Source of the DNA: Sulfuritalea sp.
GTDB taxonomy: Bacteria > Pseudomonadota > Gammaproteobacteria > Burkholderiales > Rhodocyclaceae
Length of the DNA stretch: 46,454 bases
Direction of reading: 5' to 3'
Assembly (NCBI GenBank): GCA_030651305.1
Contig: JAUSCI010000011.1
Coordinates: forward strand, 1-46,454
Notes under the pieces: generated by a model
Told to the model about the DNA's origin: nothing
The model's input: only the letters and a program-made list of their open reading frames with translations
Database searches by the model: none
Shown here: one piece after another, positions 26,719-33,679 of the stretch
Position numbering within the stretch: position 1 is the stretch's first letter
How the letters are laid out: each line of letters starts with the position of its first letter
Position numbers and translations under genes: made by a program

Positions 26719-26955
26719 TTAGATGCGCTCGCCGCGCTCGCGCAACTCGGCGAGGACTACTTCGATGCCCTTCTTGTCGATAGTGCGCAGGCCGGCGTTT
26801 GAAACACGCAGGCTGACCCAGCGGTTTTCGGTTTCGATCCAGAAGCGGCGGCTGTGCAGGTTAGGCAGAAAGCGACGCTTGGTCCTATTGTTGGCGTGGG
26901 ACACTGTGTTCCCTACCATCGGGGCTTTGCCCGTCACTTGACAAACGCGAGACAT
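26719..26955 (-). CDS. rpmB: 50S ribosomal protein L28
   Basis: L28 is a 78-residue large-subunit protein beginning [20 protein letters not shown] and containing [13 protein letters not shown]. The ATG at 26955 is used; a longer reading frame adds ten residues with no support, and AGGAGC lies just before this ATG. It has one N-terminal cysteine only, so it is the zinc-free form. It is the first gene of rpmB-rpmG. Confidence 0.96.
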
Positions 26956-26993
26956 GTGATGCTCCTGAATATGCTGATTTCGCAAAGCAGGCT

Positions 26994-27022
26994 AGTTTAC
27001 AAACAATCACCCGAAAATTCAA
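26994..27022 (-). promoter_or_regulatory. probable rpmB-rpmG promoter
   Basis: On the minus strand TTGAAT (27022-27017), a 17-nt spacer and TAAACT (26999-26994) resemble a sigma-70 promoter about 40 nt before rpmB. It sits directly after the radC stop, so rpmB can be transcribed independently. Confidence 0.55.
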
Positions 27023-27030
27023 TACCCTTG

Positions 27031-27711
27031 TCAAATCAATCCGCGTTCGGCGAAAGACAATGGTTCCGCGCTTCCTGCCACGATGAAATGGTCGAGGAGC
27101 TTTACGTCGACCAGTGCCAAGGCCTGTTTCAGTGATGAAGTGAGTACTTCGTCGGCGCGCGAAGGTTCGGCGAGACCTGAGGGGTGGTTGTGGGCGAGGA
27201 TCACCGCGCCGGCGTTGTGTGCCAGTGCCCGTTTGACGACTTCGCGCGGATAGACGCTGGTTTGCGTCAGCGTGCCGCGAAACAGCTCCTCGCTGGCGAT
27301 CAGCCGGTTTTGGGCATCCAGCCACAGGGCGACGAATACCTCGTGCGGCAGGTTGCCGATTGACAAGCGCAGCCAGTCACGGACTGCTTGCGGTGAGGCC
27401 AGCGCGTCCTTGATCTTGAGCGACCCGGCGAGCGCGCGGCGCGCCAGTTCCAGCGTGGCGGCGAGTTGGGCGGCCTTGGCCGGCCCAATGCCAGGCAGGC
27501 GGGCGAGTTTCGTGGTACTGGCGGCGGCAAGGCTCGCCAGATCGCCATCGAAGCTTGCCAGCAGGTCGCGGGCCAGATCCACGGCACTCTTGCCGCGGAC
27601 TCCGACGCGCAGAAAGATCGCCAGCAGTTCGGCGTCCGACAGTGCCGCCGCACCCTGTTCGGCCAGTCGTTCGCGCGGGCGCTCCGCCGCGGGCCAATCG
27701 CGTATGGCCAT
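27031..27711 (-). CDS. radC: RadC family JAMM-domain protein
   Basis: The 226-residue protein has an N-terminal helix-hairpin-helix region (about 15-95, [14 protein letters not shown]) and a C-terminal MPN/JAB domain (about 105-226) with the metal-binding signature [15 protein letters not shown]. The cellular role of RadC is uncertain despite the name, since the old link to DNA repair has been questioned. It is divergent from coaBC, with only 46 nt between the two starts, an arrangement common in proteobacteria. Confidence 0.94.
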
Positions 27712-27757
27712 GGTTTAGAATCCCCGCTTGATTGCCTATTGGCGGGATTTTAATGTC

Positions 27758-28960
27758 ATGAACGAATTTCAGGGCAAACGCGTTGTATTGGGAGTGACTG
27801 GTGGCGTGGCCGCATACAAGGCGGCAGAGCTGGTACGTCTGCTGGTAAAGGCCGGCGCAGAAGTAGATGTCGCTCTGACTGCAGCAGGCGCACAGTTCGT
27901 CGGCGCAGCGACTTTCCAGGCGCTCACCGGTCGCCGTGTGTGGCAGGCGCTGTGGGACGAGCGCATGGACAACGGCATGGCGCATATCGGGCTTACGCGC
28001 GGCGCGGCCGCATTGCTGGTAGCCCCGGCGACGGCGGATTTCCTCGCCAAGTTGGCGCATGGCTTTGCCGATGACTTGTTGTCTACTGTTTGTCTGGCGC
28101 GGGATTGCCCCTTACTGGTGGCTCCTGCCATGAACCGCCAGATGTTGGAAAACTCGGCTACGCAACGCAACGTAGCGCAACTGCGTGCGGATGGCGTGAG
28201 CATTCTTGGTCCCGCGCATGGTGAGCAAGCCTGCGGTGAAGTGGGTGAAGGGCGGATGCTGGAAGCAGCCGAACTGCTTGACGATTTGCACGCCTTTCTT
28301 CAGCCCAAGCCAATGTCCGGCAAGCGAGTGCTGCTGACCGCCGGCCCAACCTTTGAAATGCTCGATCCGGTAAGAGGCCTTACCAATTCCAGTTCGGGCA
28401 AGATGGGCTTCGCGCTGGCGCGTGCTTGCGTTGAGGCGGGCGCAGAGGTGACGCTGGTCGCCGGGCCGGTTGCGCTAGCCACGCCGCGCGGAGTGCGCCG
28501 CATAGACGTGCAGAGTGCCGTGCAAATGGGTGATGCGGTAACGCTGGCTTTGCCAGGACAGAACGTGTTCATCGGCGTAGCGGCTGTCGCCGACTATCGG
28601 CCACAGAAGACGTCCGCGCACAAGATCAAGAAGGGTCCCAGTAGTCTTACGCTCCAGCTCGACGCGAATCCCGACATTCTCGCCGAAGTGGCGGCACGAC
28701 CCGATGCGCCATTTTGTGTCGGCTTCGCCGCCGAGAGCCAGGATCTGGCTGCCAATGCGGAAGGCAAGCGCGTGGCGAAGAAACTTGCGCTGGTGGTTGG
28801 CAACCTGGTGCAGGACGGACTGGGTGGCGACACCAACGCGGTAACCCTGTTCGATGCGGCCGGAGCACATGTTCTTCCACCTGGGGATAAATCCGAAGTG
28901 GCGCGCGGCATCGTCGCGCATATCGCCCGCCTGATGGAGAAGCAACTTGGCCAGCATTGA
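27758..28960 (+). CDS. coaBC: bifunctional phosphopantothenoylcysteine decarboxylase/synthetase
   Basis: CoaBC (Dfp) joins cysteine to 4'-phosphopantothenate and decarboxylates the product, on the way to coenzyme A. The ATG at 27758 gives 400 residues. The CoaC flavoprotein half (about 1-185) starts [20 protein letters not shown], has the active histidine in [28 protein letters not shown], and the cysteine in [11 protein letters not shown]. The CoaB half (about 186-400) has [26 protein letters not shown] and KIKKG. It overlaps dut by 14 nt. Confidence 0.96.
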
Positions 28961-29405
28961 CCTCAAGATACTCGATAGCCGCCTCAAGGACGACCGATAC
29001 GCGCCGCAGTACTCCACGCCGGGAGCGGCCGGCATCGATCTTCGTGCGTGCATCGAAATGGCGATCAAAATCGGTCCCGGCGAAACCATTCTTGTCCCGA
29101 CCGGCATTGCCATCCATCTGTCTGATCCGGCCCTGGCGGCAATGATCCTGCCGCGCTCGGGTCTGGGTCACAAGCACGGCATCGTCCTCGGCAATCTGGT
29201 CGGGCTGATTGATTCCGACTACCAGGGCGAGATTTTCGTTTCCACATGGAATCGCGGTCACGACATCTTCACCCTGAACCCGTTGGATCGCTTGGCGCAA
29301 CTGGTCGTGGTACCGGTGGTGCAGGTGGCCTTCAATGTAGTGGACGAATTTCCCGCCAGCGAACGTGGCGCCGGCGGCTTTGGCAGCACGGGTGTTGCCG
29401 GGTAG
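28947..29405 (+). CDS. dut: deoxyuridine 5'-triphosphate nucleotidohydrolase
   Basis: Dut hydrolyses dUTP to dUMP, keeping uracil out of DNA and feeding thymidylate synthesis. The 152-residue protein shows the five trimeric-dUTPase motifs: [42 protein letters not shown], and the C-terminal [10 protein letters not shown]. The start is TTG at 28947 with GGAG 7 nt before it; no ATG is available in this part without losing conserved residues. The coaBC-dut pair is common. Confidence 0.95.
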
Positions 29406-29432: not shown

Positions 29433-30053
29433 ATGAAGGCATTTGTCAAATTGGTGCTGACGGTCGTCGCTGGCATGTCGTCTCTGCAAACGGTCGCGGC
29501 ATCGCTACCGGCGACAGCTGTTTCCCCGCGCGTTGCAGAGGTCATCGCGTCACGTTGCGCCTTGTGTCATGGTCCGCAAGGCGAGAGTGCCAGCGCTATC
29601 TATCCGCGTCTTGCCGCTCAGCATCCGGATTACCTCGTCAAACAATTGAGGGATTTTCGCGATGGCCGCCGCAAGGGCGAGACCATGACAGACATGGCGA
29701 AGGACTTGCATGATGAAGATATCACTGGTCTGGCGGCATTTTTCGCCAGCAGGAAGGCAGGTGGGCGCCAGGCCGGCGACGTCGAATTGGCGGGGGTGGG
29801 AAAGTATATCTATCATCGCGGTAACACCTTTTCGGGGGTGGCGGCCTGTGCTTCCTGTCATGGCCCGAATGGATTGGGCACCGAGCTGCTGCCTCGTCTG
29901 GCAGGCCAGCATCCCGCTTACATTGAGATCCAGCTGAAAGAGTTCAACAAGCGTGCGCGCACCAACGACAACTCGATAATGCATTCGATTGCGGCGAAGC
30001 TTACCGAACTGGAAACCAAGGCCGTATCGGTATATATCGGAGGTCTGCAATAG
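29433..30053 (+). CDS. dihaem cytochrome c4-like protein
   Basis: This 206-residue periplasmic cytochrome has a signal peptide (about 1-24) and two class I haem domains, with CALCH at 42-46 and CASCH at 139-143. Methionines in MTDMAKDLHDEDI (about 85-97) and SIMHSIAAKLTE (about 181-192) are the probable sixth ligands. Two similar halves and this length fit cytochrome c4, which carries electrons to terminal oxidases or reductases. It follows dut by 27 nt on the same strand and converges on the fccB operon, so it may accept electrons from that system. Confidence 0.9.
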   Translation: MKAFVKLVLTVVAGMSSLQTVAASLPATAVSPRVAEVIASRCALCHGPQGESASAIYPRLAAQHPDYLVKQLRDFRDGRRKGETMTDMAKDLHDEDITGLAAFFASRKAGGRQAGDVELAGVGKYIYHRGNTFSGVAACASCHGPNGLGTELLPRLAGQHPAYIEIQLKEFNKRARTNDNSIMHSIAAKLTELETKAVSVYIGGLQ

Positions 30054-30097: not shown

Positions 30098-30134
30098 AAA
30101 AAACAAACCCCGCCGTAGCGGGGTTTGTTTTCTT
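30098..30134. terminator. bidirectional terminator between cytochrome c4 and fccB
   Basis: AAACAAACCCCGC and GCGGGGTTTGTTT pair around CGTA (30100-30130), with A-rich and T-rich flanks that suit termination in both directions. It sits between the convergent cytochrome and fccB genes. Confidence 0.93.
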
Positions 30135-30151: not shown

Positions 30152-31426
30152 TCAGGTCGACATTTCGGTGAGTATGTTCTTCAGCCAGCTTTCGGCATAG
30201 ATCGCCTCAGTCTCGGACAAGTCGGGCGAGACGCCGACCGAACCGGGCACTGCGATGATCGCGCCTTTGTCGACCTTGTAGACTCCGGTCACCTCGACTG
30301 CTTCCTTGGCGGAGAGGAAGCTGTAACAGGTGTTGATGCCGGAGAAGTCGATGAGTTCCTTGCCGTTCATCGCATTGACGATGTTGGTGGCGCAGGCCTT
30401 GGCTTCCGAGTTTGCCGAGTAGCCGGACTTGGGCATCGCACCCGCGACGCAAGAATCGCCAATGACATGGATATTCTTGTGCAGCGTGGACTCGAAAGTC
30501 ATTGGATTGACGGGACACCACTTCTTGTCCGTACCCACCACGCCTGCAACGTGAGCGATATGGCCGGCCTTCTGCGGCGGAATGACGTTGATGACGGCAC
30601 CCTTGACTTCTTCGATGCCCTCGACCAGCACGGCCATGCCCCGCGTGTCGATTTCCGTGACCTTCTTGGCTGCGCGGTAATCGATGAGACCGTCGTAGTG
30701 CTTCTTCCAGCCTTTCAAGAACAGCCCCTTCTTGGAGACGATGTCCGGATTGGCGTCGAGAATGATGACCTTGGAGCCCGGCTTGTGCTGCTTGAGGTAC
30801 ATGGCGATCATGCTGGCCCGCTCGTAGGGGCCGGGCGGGCAGCGGAAAGGCGCGAGGGGGATGGAAATCACCACGTTGCCGCCGGCTTTCATCGCTTCCA
30901 GTTGCTTGCGCAACAGGACGGTCTGCGGGCCCGCTTTCCATGCATGGGGCATGATTTCCGGCGTCGTGGCCATATCATAGCCCTTGATCTCTTCGGTACG
31001 GAACTCGATGCCGGGAGAAAGAACCAGCCGATCATAGGTGACGTCGCCGGTGGAAGTCTTGACAACCTTTGTCGCCGCATCGACCCCGGTAACCTCTGCC
31101 TGAATCACCTTGACGCCGTGGTTGGCCGCCAGTTTGTCGTACTTGATGGTCAGCGGTGACAGGTCTTTCATGAGGCCGCCGATGTAAAGGTTGCTGAAGG
31201 GGCAGGACACGAAGTGGTCGTTGCGTTCGATCAGCACCACCTCGATGGAGGAATCCATCATGCGGATGTACTTCGCCGCGATCGTGCCGCCATAGCCGCC
31301 GCCAACTACCACCACACGCCGTCCGCCGGTTGGGCCACTGAGTCCGCCGGTTCCGGCACAGGCTGCCAAGGCGAGGCTGGAGGCACCGCCCAGTAGTTTT
31401 ATGAAATTTCTGCGATCCAGAGTCAT
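30152..31426 (-). CDS. fccB: flavocytochrome c sulfide dehydrogenase, flavoprotein subunit
   Basis: FccB takes two electrons from sulfide onto FAD and passes them to a cytochrome partner. The 424-residue protein begins with a Tat signal (MTLDRRNFIKLLGG), then LAAC at 20-23, which reads as a lipobox. The FAD-binding loop is VVVVGGGYGG (38-47). C75 in FVSCPFSN sits where the flavin-linking cysteine lies in FccB. The two redox cysteines have counterparts in RCPPGPYERA and NTCYS; GDSCVAGAMPKSGYSANSEA is also typical. I chose ATG 31426 because GGAGG lies 7 nt before it; an ATG 6 nt upstream would be too close to that site. It is the last gene of the four-gene operon, next to its dihaem partner. 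Confidence 0.92.
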   Translation of the reverse strand: MTLDRRNFIKLLGGASSLALAACAGTGGLSGPTGGRRVVVVGGGYGGTIAAKYIRMMDSSIEVVLIERNDHFVSCPFSNLYIGGLMKDLSPLTIKYDKLAANHGVKVIQAEVTGVDAATKVVKTSTGDVTYDRLVLSPGIEFRTEEIKGYDMATTPEIMPHAWKAGPQTVLLRKQLEAMKAGGNVVISIPLAPFRCPPGPYERASMIAMYLKQHKPGSKVIILDANPDIVSKKGLFLKGWKKHYDGLIDYRAAKKVTEIDTRGMAVLVEGIEEVKGAVINVIPPQKAGHIAHVAGVVGTDKKWCPVNPMTFESTLHKNIHVIGDSCVAGAMPKSGYSANSEAKACATNIVNAMNGKELIDFSGINTCYSFLSAKEAVEVTGVYKVDKGAIIAVPGSVGVSPDLSETEAIYAESWLKNILTEMST

Positions 31427-31439
31427 GTTCATTCCTCCC

Positions 31440-32018
31440 TTATTTAACACTGGCGTAGAAGTGCAAGAGGGCTTCCAGATCCGCCTTGGACATCGGCTTC
31501 ACCTTCTCTTGCATTTGTTCCGGCATCTTGCGCTTGCCCGACAGGTAGTCGGCCATCTGAATCTGCATATAGGGCAACCACTGGCTGGCCATCGCCGGGG
31601 TGTCGTCCTTGCCCTCCTTGCCGTCTTCCAGATGGCAACGGCCGCAGTTGGCTTCCTGCAAACTGGCGCCCTTGGCGATTTTCGCCTTGTCCAGAGTCTG
31701 GTTCGTGGCATGCAGCTTCTGTTTGGAGAAGAACTCGCCCATGGCGGCGATCTCGGCATCACTGTAACCCTTCGCCAGGCGGCCCATGACCGTCGCAGGG
31801 CGCGCGCCGCTCTTGAACTTCTTCATGGCGTCGACGATGGCTTTGTCCGACTGACCAGCCAGACTCGGCATGCTCGGGCCGGCGCTGCCGCCATGCGTGC
31901 CGTGACAACCGGCGCAGGCATTGGACAGCATCGCCGCAGTAGGCGGTGCGGCTTGCGCCATCGCGGACACCGCCAGGACGCCGGTGGCCAGCGCCCATCC
32001 ACTCCATTTCATTGTCAT
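31440..32018 (-). CDS. fccA: dihaem cytochrome c, FccA-like subunit
   Basis: This 192-residue protein has a signal peptide (about 1-23, cut after AQA) and two class I haem sites, CAGCH (35-39) and CGRCH (125-129). A 20-kDa dihaem cytochrome directly before fccB is the expected electron-accepting subunit of flavocytochrome c. It ends 13 nt before fccB. The start is supported by AAGGAGG upstream. A generic cytochrome c4-type protein is the alternative, but the neighbour favours FccA. Confidence 0.85.
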
Positions 32019-32075
32019 TTTTGTCTCCTCCTTGGTATTGATGGAATTACTGCTCGCAAAACTCCTTTTGCCTCT

Positions 32076-32975
32076 TTATTGCTTTTGTACGTCAATGTAG
32101 CTCTTCACGCCGGGATTGGGCTTGTCCAGACCGAACTGATAACCCAGCGAAACATAATGGAAGCGGGCATTGGTGTAATCCTCGTGAATCGCAAAGCCAA
32201 AGTTATACACCTTGTCGGCAGTAATGGCATGGTCGCCTTTGCCGCCGCCGGCCAAGCTGCGCTCGAAGGTCACGACCCACTTGTTGCCTTCCTTCTTGCC
32301 TTCGGTCTTGATCAGGGACTTGCCACCGTCCATGTGACGCGCTTCGGCGACATAGCCGTCAACTGGCGCCTTCTCACCGCTGCGGTACTGGATCAGGTCC
32401 ATGAATTTGCCGGAGGCCAGATCGGCGTTCTTGACGTGCTTGGTCGTCTTGTCGTCCTTGGCATTCTTCATGCTGCGCAGATCGGTGTGGCAGGTCGCCC
32501 AGCAGCCGTTGAGTTCGGAGCCTTCGACCGTGCCGCCACCGTCGAACATCATGGTCAGCTTGACTTCATTCTTGGCGTCGAGCTTTTTCGCGCCCCCCTG
32601 GGGTGGGGTCCACTCGAAACGAAAATAAACCTTGCTGCCATCATGCGCGGCCTGAAACATAACCGGAATTGAGCCGGCCTTGCCTGCAGGGGGCGTGGGC
32701 TCAAGCACGGTCTTGGAACTGCCGACCGGTTTGCCAGCCACGATCTTGCCGCCGATTTCGTGGGCGTCACCCTCGTGGCACTTGGCACAGCTACGCTTCT
32801 TGTCGACGATATCCGGTACCGCCGAGTGGTCGGGTTTGTTCATCACCCATTCGAGGGAGGCCTGACCCGGATAGAACAAGGTCATCTTGCGCTGGGGTAC
32901 CTTGCTCCAGTCCGGAGCCGCGGACGCGACGCCGGCGATTAGCGCACTGGCAAAAAACAACCCAATCTTCTTCAT
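32076..32975 (-). CDS. ethylbenzene-dehydrogenase-type haem-binding cytochrome
   Basis: This 299-residue periplasmic protein has a signal peptide (about 1-19, cut after ASA). One normal c-type haem site is CAKCH (63-67), and a second candidate has an extra residue, CWATCH (158-163, CX3CH). The beta-rich region around it (VYFRFEWTPP, VKLTMMFDGGG, VYNFGFAIHEDYTNARFHYVSLGYQFG) resembles the haem-binding domain shared by the gamma subunits of type II DMSO-reductase-family enzymes such as ethylbenzene, selenate and perchlorate reductases. No molybdoenzyme gene is nearby, so here it probably acts as an electron carrier between the NapC-like protein and FccAB. Function is inferred from context. Confidence 0.8.
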   Translation of the reverse strand: MKKIGLFFASALIAGVASAAPDWSKVPQRKMTLFYPGQASLEWVMNKPDHSAVPDIVDKKRSCAKCHEGDAHEIGGKIVAGKPVGSSKTVLEPTPPAGKAGSIPVMFQAAHDGSKVYFRFEWTPPQGGAKKLDAKNEVKLTMMFDGGGTVEGSELNGCWATCHTDLRSMKNAKDDKTTKHVKNADLASGKFMDLIQYRSGEKAPVDGYVAEARHMDGGKSLIKTEGKKEGNKWVVTFERSLAGGGKGDHAITADKVYNFGFAIHEDYTNARFHYVSLGYQFGLDKPNPGVKSYIDVQKQ

Positions 32976-33040
32976 CTCTCAATACCTCCCAAAAATCTGA
33001 AAATGTGCCGGCAGCAAGCTGGACGTATGTATTGTATGTA

Positions 33041-33679
33041 CTAACTGCTCTTCTTTGCCGCTGCAGCCGCTTCTTCCTGCTCCAGTAACTGGTGCACCGG
33101 TTTGTGGGCGATGCCCTTGTGGCAATCGATGCAGGTCTTGCCGTCCTCGATGGCGCCTTCGTGCTTGACCACTGAGCGGTCCTTCTGCTTTTCCGGGTCC
33201 ATGGTCTCAAACTGGTGGCAGTTGCGGCACTCCTTGGAGTCGGAGTCCTTCATTTTCTCCCAGACGCGCTGGGCCATTGCCAGGCGGTGGGCTTCGAATT
33301 TCTCGGGCGTGTCTACCGTGCCCCTGATGTGGCCAAGGACATCACGGGCGGCCATCAGCTTCATGGTCAGCTTGCGGGCATAGTCGAGCGGGTGCTTGCT
33401 GCCTGCAACGTGGCAGTCGGCACAGGAAACAGTGGTGCCACTGCGATTCTTGTAATGGACTGTCTTCTTCAGTTCTTCATAGGGAATGCTCATCTCGTGG
33501 CAGGAGAGGCAAAACTCGGTGCGGTTGGTCCATTCCATTCCGGTGTTGAGGCCGCCCCAGATGATGATGCCGCCCAGCACGCCGACCACGATCATGCGCA
33601 ACATCGAGCATTTCGGCGGGTTCATGAGACAACTGAAAAACCCGTCTGTGCATCCTGTTTTTGGGGCTTCGTCGGCCAT
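33041..33679 (-). CDS. NapC/NirT-family tetraheme quinol dehydrogenase
   Basis: This 212-residue membrane-anchored cytochrome exchanges electrons between the quinone pool and periplasmic partners. One transmembrane helix (about 27-45) is followed by four haem motifs: CLSCH (57-61, in the family form CxSCHxM), CADCH (86-90), CRNCH (151-155) and CIDCH (183-187). WGGLNTGMEWTNRTEFC and ECRNCHQF closely follow NapC/NirT. Before the helix there are three evenly spaced cysteines (C10, C17, C24), which I do not recall from NapC. It is first in the operon with the haem-binding protein, fccA and fccB. No nap or nir gene lies nearby. Confidence 0.92.
   Translation of the reverse strand: MADEAPKTGCTDGFFSCLMNPPKCSMLRMIVVGVLGGIIIWGGLNTGMEWTNRTEFCLSCHEMSIPYEELKKTVHYKNRSGTTVSCADCHVAGSKHPLDYARKLTMKLMAARDVLGHIRGTVDTPEKFEAHRLAMAQRVWEKMKDSDSKECRNCHQFETMDPEKQKDRSVVKHEGAIEDGKTCIDCHKGIAHKPVHQLLEQEEAAAAAKKSS

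Follow-up and report, generated by a model that had tools for sequence, protein, structure and literature searches.

A conserved four-gene cluster in Sulfuritalea and its relatives pairs flavocytochrome c sulfide dehydrogenase with a NapC-type quinone-side partner: a possible sulfide-to-quinone route

In the usual picture, flavocytochrome c sulfide dehydrogenase (FccAB) feeds soluble cytochromes, so that its electrons bypass the quinone pool and the proton pump of the bc1 complex; sulfide:quinone oxidoreductase (SQR) is a single, heme-free flavoprotein. Why, then, should the genes of a flavocytochrome c share a cluster with a gene for a predicted quinone/quinol oxidoreductase? The question is raised by a 46,454-nucleotide stretch of Sulfuritalea sp. 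(Burkholderiales; Rhodocyclaceae; assembly GCA_030651305.1, contig JAUSCI010000011.1), hereafter the window, in which four consecutive minus-strand genes encode a NapC/NirT-type tetraheme membrane cytochrome, a periplasmic protein with an EB_dh domain (EBdh), a diheme cytochrome c and FccB, the flavin subunit of the sulfide dehydrogenase. Here we argue that these four proteins work as one unit, with a partner on the quinone side, a conclusion that is well supported, and we favor, at little better than even odds, the view that electrons pass through this unit from sulfide to quinone.

The genes are napC (33041-33679), the EBdh gene (32076-32975), the gene of the FccA-like diheme cytochrome (31440-32018) and fccB (30152-31426), separated by gaps of 65, 57 and 13 nucleotides, the last counted from the second ATG of fccB. 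An earlier reading made without database searches (the sequence-only reading) had described the same layout, and both the open reading frame coordinates and Pfam, for all four protein families, bear it out. It had further staked its case on the gene order recurring elsewhere, which it does. From a scan of named genome contigs we collected the best 80 of 172 relatives, ranked by similarity to EBdh of the kind encoded beside fccB, a choice that favors loci of this kind (fcc-type loci), and took up to ~6 kb on either side of each. The order napC, EBdh, diheme cytochrome, fccB on one strand is complete in 75 of these 80 loci and the other five are cut at contig ends; the cytochrome gene stands immediately before fccB in 77, the remaining three ending at contig edges. 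Titles of the 80 include Rhodocyclaceae, Rhodocyclales, Sulfuritalea, Thiobacillus, Gallionellaceae and Nitrosomonadales. A less biased sample is provided by 200 genomes of the order, the source genome among them: an EBdh match occurs in 17, and nine of these carry the four genes in the order of the window (hereafter carriers).

The first two genes are often physically joined. NapC and EBdh form one polypeptide in 20 of the 80 loci (19 of the 75 complete ones and one that is cut), connected through a Pro/Ala-rich linker, and open frames of 556-564 residues, found in three genomes of the same genus at the place where the window has two genes, suggest such a fusion there too. The NapC concerned is also a distinct one. 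It occurs in all nine carriers at 68-100% identity, with the next best protein at no more than 57% (13 genomes: the nine carriers and four others), and across 121 genomes of the family its scores are bimodal, with 20 genomes at 305 bits or more (at least 70% identity) and the remainder at 222 bits or less, as counted from rows given best first, with linkage to fccB checked in part of the 20. In a midpoint-rooted tree the fcc-type NapC proteins form one clade (support 98/94), which includes rows B_L049_6 and B_L050_13, fcc-type loci despite their label; the NapC of L040 and L051 were left out, and our trees draw on at most 26 of the 80 loci.

The window NapC matches PF03264 (NapC/NirT; E 1.3e-64, over the cut-off), with CxxCH motifs at residues 57, 86, 151 and 183 and a single N-terminal hydrophobic segment (residues 26-44). 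Against NCBIfam TIGR02161 it scores 228.9 bits, below the curated cut-off of 310.6, and is therefore a divergent superfamily member and not a curated NapC or NirT. A third NapC of the source genome is likewise under this cut-off (277.3 bits); it lies on another contig (G000:C67; L058:9048-13628) beside a four-heme protein and a nine-heme protein with a cytochrome b561 domain match.

What is the EBdh protein between NapC and the flavocytochrome? It matches PF09459 (EB_dh; E 3.4e-30) and has a signal-like N-terminus, a CxxCH motif at residue 63 and a CxxxCH motif at residue 158, and therefore may be a diheme protein; both motifs are kept in all 80 loci, and His 264 and His 273 are invariant across 42 aligned rows. 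At the sequence level, profile comparison gives weak matches to EbdC and NxrC. An AlphaFold2 model (mean predicted local distance difference test score, pLDDT, 82) finds EbdC (2ivf_C) as its best Foldseek match (E 4e-9, TM-score 0.47 by query length, root-mean-square deviation 7.6) and also matches NxrC (7b04; E 2.4e-5). EbdC carries a b-heme (PMC8387239), whereas EBdh has the two c-type motifs instead. A closer parallel has been described in Azospira suillum, in which the diheme cytochromes NapO and PcrO, homologs of the EbdC gamma subunit, function alongside NapC and PcrQ, and in which a double mutant lacking NapO and PcrO does not grow on nitrate or perchlorate (PMC5845722). Because of the two heme motifs, the EbdC-like fold and this precedent, we regard EBdh as a probable diheme carrier of the NapO/PcrO kind, the link to Azospira being made through the published description.

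The sequence-only reading had called EBdh an ethylbenzene-dehydrogenase-type heme protein and an extra heme carrier; a carrier of the NapO/PcrO type explains it better than a stray molybdoenzyme subunit would. We considered a gamma-subunit role and rejected it, since no molybdoenzyme was found beside EBdh and the Azospira precedent and the nitrite-linked loci described below fit better. The same reading had reported no nap, nir or molybdoenzyme gene next to the cluster, with which our searches agree: NirS, NirF and NapA queries gave zero matches in the window, and no molybdoenzyme is among the ten window proteins profiled (a part of its genes), NapA being the sole molybdoenzyme query.

The identity of FccB is clear from PF21706 (FCSD_central; E 2.5e-45) and PF09242 (FCSD-flav_bind; E 3.8e-16), both over their cut-offs, and from profile matches to 5n1t, 1fcd and 3vrd (each E < 1e-132); against the SQR family it reaches 99.3 bits (SQR_III_seleno, cut-off 525). 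The cysteines of the patterns SCPFSN, RCPPGPYER and NTCYS have aligned counterparts in 1fcd and 5n1t and do not vary across nine rows, and all three patterns occur in 67 of 77 loci; we take them to be the cysteine that binds flavin adenine dinucleotide covalently and the active-site pair. The partner cytochrome has CxxCH motifs at residues 35 and 125 and two Pfam cytochrome c stretches. In the source genome the window FccB is the sole strong match to the family, the next best scoring 64 bits. Its N-terminus, MTLDRRNFIKLLGGASSLALAAC, holds a twin-arginine translocation (Tat)-type motif and a lipobox-like LAAC. Across the loci, 69 of 75 FccB proteins have the Tat motif and 38 of 75 a lipobox, the latter being present in 38 of the 56 with separate NapC and EBdh and in none of the 19 with a fusion, a split in which the fused loci may stand for few lineages and some gene starts are trimmed. 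No locus was seen to combine a lipobox with a fusion (e.g., L063 with a lipobox, L082 fused), and the two could be alternative modes of tethering the chain to the membrane.

The NapC-EBdh pair has a second partner, and the two sets of loci separate cleanly. The nir-type set comprises 33 loci, of which 13 belong to the order and 20 to the rest of the class (20 fetched of 27 other genomes with a match), some in stretches of 3-6 kb; L055, L056 and a contig end of the source genome (L057) were excluded from the counts. Of these 33, 29 have nirS or nirF and none has fccB, whereas fccB accompanies the pair in 77 of the 80 fcc-type loci, with nirS, nirF and napA each in none of the 80 stretches. From the class outside this order we fetched 20 loci and saw no fccB in any of their stretches. 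On plasmids of Ruegeria, Aliiroseovarius and Azospirillum, NapC and EBdh share one coding sequence beside a cytochrome cd1-type nitrite reductase. Apart from two odd rows, EBdh of the nir-type loci makes up a clade (96/100); no single supported clade of fcc-type EBdh appears in the tree. The source genome has both types: a contig-cut NapC-EBdh fusion (G000:C49:1-1188, L057) lies ~2 kb from nirS. Outside the order we also observed open frames of 925-998 residues with two successive EBdh matches (G283:C1:658196-660292, G297:C159 and G416:C20), of which those of G283 and G416 are nirS-linked.

The surroundings of the fcc-type loci and the genomes that carry them point to sulfur oxidation; the sequence-only reading had named co-occurring sulfur or nitrogen genes as a check. 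Matches to SoxY, SoxZ, YeeE, TusA or DsrE2 occur within the stretch in 17 of 80 fcc-type loci versus 0 of 33 nir-type loci (one SoxY, SoxZ, YeeE and DsrE2 protein each was confirmed by Pfam); SoxY and SoxZ matches are each found in 13 of the 80, and in seven loci the two immediately precede napC. DsrA is over its cut-off in eight of the nine carriers, the source genome being among the nine, versus 29 of 191 other genomes (Fisher p 5.5e-6), and SoxB in eight of nine versus 89 of 191 (p 0.014), in statistics that ignore shared ancestry. SoxY is over its cut-off in eight of nine carriers; in the source genome both SoxB and SoxY are. Another carrier, Candidatus Desulfobacillus denitrificans, has dsrAB reported to be of the oxidative type (PMC8402940). 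As for the quinone, MenD over its cut-off is missing from four of the nine carriers, including the source genome, and the futalosine marker of menaquinone synthesis is over its cut-off in none.

Together, the conserved order, the natural NapC-EBdh fusions, the separate NapC clade and the nearby sulfur genes provide good support for a functional unit in which sulfide dehydrogenase is coupled to a quinone-side partner. The sequence-only reading had gone further and proposed a periplasmic complex coupling sulfide oxidation to quinone reduction; the unit stands, and the direction we infer. In principle, electrons could pass along such a chain in either direction. We favor flow toward quinone because of the sulfur-oxidation context and because four of nine carriers, the source genome among them, have no menaquinone marker over its cut-off. 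In this scheme FccB, predicted to be Tat-exported and lipid-anchored, would draw two electrons from sulfide or a bound persulfide; the diheme cytochrome, which presumably contacts EBdh, would relay them to the EBdh carrier; EBdh would hand them to tetraheme NapC; and NapC would reduce ubiquinone. The arrangement may have arisen by adding FccAB to a conduit of the NapC-NapO type that otherwise serves nitrite, nitrate or perchlorate reduction. Quinone reduction by a member of the NapC family is reportedly performed by cytochrome c552 of Nitrosomonas.

Several observations weigh against this scheme. The tested relatives work in the other direction: NapC and PcrQ of Azospira are described as carrying quinol electrons to nitrate and perchlorate reductases (PMC5845722), ImoA was measured as a quinol oxidizer (PMC9600427), and the nir-type use of the NapC-EBdh pair, by analogy, implies quinol oxidation too. 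On the genomic side, MenD is over its cut-off in five of nine carriers, no DsrA over the cut-off was found in the source genome, and the nine carriers represent five families. Moreover, seven of nine carriers have additional FccB-like matches above 300 bits, and at ten such extra loci that we fetched (L148-L157, L148 ending just before fccB) no NapC or EBdh was seen; L148 and L149 nest within the fcc-type FccB group in the tree, and this FccB type is therefore not strictly tied to NapC. The model of a fused NapC-EBdh protein is too poor to show docking (pLDDT 56, the linker of very low confidence). Two extra FccB-cytochrome pairs were noted: that at L149:4922-6726, with 60% identity to the window FccB, shows no NapC-EBdh in the 11.5-kb stretch seen, and that at L107:2859-4160, with 50% identity and divergent, adjoins a complete cluster.

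How far do these points favor other explanations? If the NapC-EBdh pair ran from quinol to the periplasm and FccAB fed the same cytochrome pool, so that the whole supplied NirS, NosZ or an oxidase, its direction would agree with the tested homologs and the nir-type loci, and the nirS near the second NapC-EBdh of the source genome would find a place. That second pair, however, is a separate fusion already at hand near nirS, none of the fcc-type stretches holds nirS, nirF or napA, and a general pool does not need strict co-location with fccB. Setting the context that speaks for quinone reduction against the quinol-oxidizing relatives, we therefore assign the sulfide-to-quinone reading a probability of about 0.55 and consider such a shared pool rather unlikely.

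The quinol-oxidizing relatives, the SoxY and SoxZ matches and the carriers with MenD could also be taken to mean that FccAB is run in reverse by quinol, reducing sulfur or polysulfide or returning SoxYZ to its reduced state. Ubiquinol is far too oxidizing to drive sulfur reduction readily, however, and the incomplete record of menaquinone markers, the enrichment of carriers in dsrA and soxB and the oxidative-type dsrAB reported for Ca. Desulfobacillus denitrificans (PMC8402940) make this explanation improbable; for the source organism, in which MenD and the futalosine marker are both below cut-off, the reverse reductase offered as an option by the sequence-only reading is unlikely for that reason. 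An equally low standing is given to mere neighborhood, with NapC and EBdh serving NapAB or another reductase and FccAB working alone with a soluble cytochrome c. The nap stretch seen in the source genome encodes NapA, NapG and, below its cut-off, a NapB-like protein but lacks napC, other FccB-cytochrome pairs do exist without NapC, and NapC and PcrQ are described as interchangeable in Azospira (PMC5845722). Set against this are a gene order broken only by contig ends and a NapC of this type in every carrier, with nothing else close to it. The napC-less nap stretch and the Azospira interchange notwithstanding, service of this NapC to a nitrate or nitrite reductase elsewhere, which the sequence-only reading had named among the findings that would refute it, is unlikely in view of the nirS-, nirF- and napA-free stretches and the separate fusion near nirS.

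The sulfide-to-quinone reading brings together parts that are each known: FccAB, NapC and NapO-type carriers; what appears to be new is their joining in one conserved cluster. With FccAB of known structure (PDB 1fcd, 3vrd, 5n1t) the cluster shares the FCSD domains, the key cysteines and a diheme cytochrome encoded in the adjacent gene, and it differs in adding NapC and EBdh and in an FccB that often has a lipobox; we know of no lipobox on a classical FccB. With SQR it shares the predicted net reaction from sulfide to quinone and a distant flavoprotein relationship, but uses a flavoprotein and three cytochromes for it. The nirS-linked modules have the same NapC and EBdh, often fused too, but a cytochrome D1 protein as partner and no fccB nearby. 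NapC-NapO and PcrQ-PcrO of Azospira suillum PS likewise combine a tetraheme NapC/NirT protein with a diheme protein homologous to the EbdC gamma subunit, and there serve nitrate and perchlorate reductases with quinol electrons (PMC5845722), whereas here the pair is joined to a sulfide dehydrogenase. In the Mto pathway of Sideroxydans, the NapC/NirT protein ImoA/CymA is proposed to pass electrons of an inorganic donor to quinone, the donor being iron and the measured activity quinol oxidation (PMC9600427). Among the matches listed in the open-licence literature we found no description of the four-gene cluster, in searches of which some were directed at this combination of genes. In the account of Ca. 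Desulfobacillus denitrificans, fccAB is listed (DSYM_09470-80; probably this locus, judging by position), and the main text leaves NapC unmentioned (PMC8402940).

The four window genes probably form a single transcript. A probable intrinsic terminator follows fccB on the minus strand (30098-30133; a 16-bp hairpin with a U run in its 3' arm): the 56 nucleotides at 30095-30150 fold with -27.6 kcal/mol (z -5.06), which 0 of 200 shuffles equaled, and the hairpin is absent from the output of a consensus terminator scan. Upstream of napC one promoter pattern was found versus 1.6 expected, which is chance level; purine-rich sites resembling ribosome-binding sites, judged by eye, precede the EBdh, diheme cytochrome and fccB genes. 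Convergent with fccB lies a gene for another diheme c-type cytochrome (29433-30053, plus strand), and in at least 16 of the 80 loci a relative of the operon cytochrome (26-32% identity) follows fccB on the opposite strand. Farther out on the fccB side (26719-29405) are three genes that, by their look, we take to be radC, coaBC and dut; a radC-like gene occurs on this side in 40 of 80 loci, and the cluster therefore often holds the same chromosomal place. A blastn search of plasmids gave no record with most of the query among the matches listed (20 of 77).

We tentatively propose that these loci encode a third biological sulfide-to-quinone route, in which FccAB acts through a NapO-type carrier tethered or fused to NapC and a module that elsewhere empties the quinone pool is reversed to fill it. 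If so, the respiratory chain may receive sulfide electrons at a point where they were not expected, and bacteria of the Sulfuritalea and Gallionellaceae types could gain SQR-like energy per sulfide. Genome surveys that list only fccAB would then misplace its electrons, and the cluster would provide a clear, testable instance of a NapC-type module running toward quinone.

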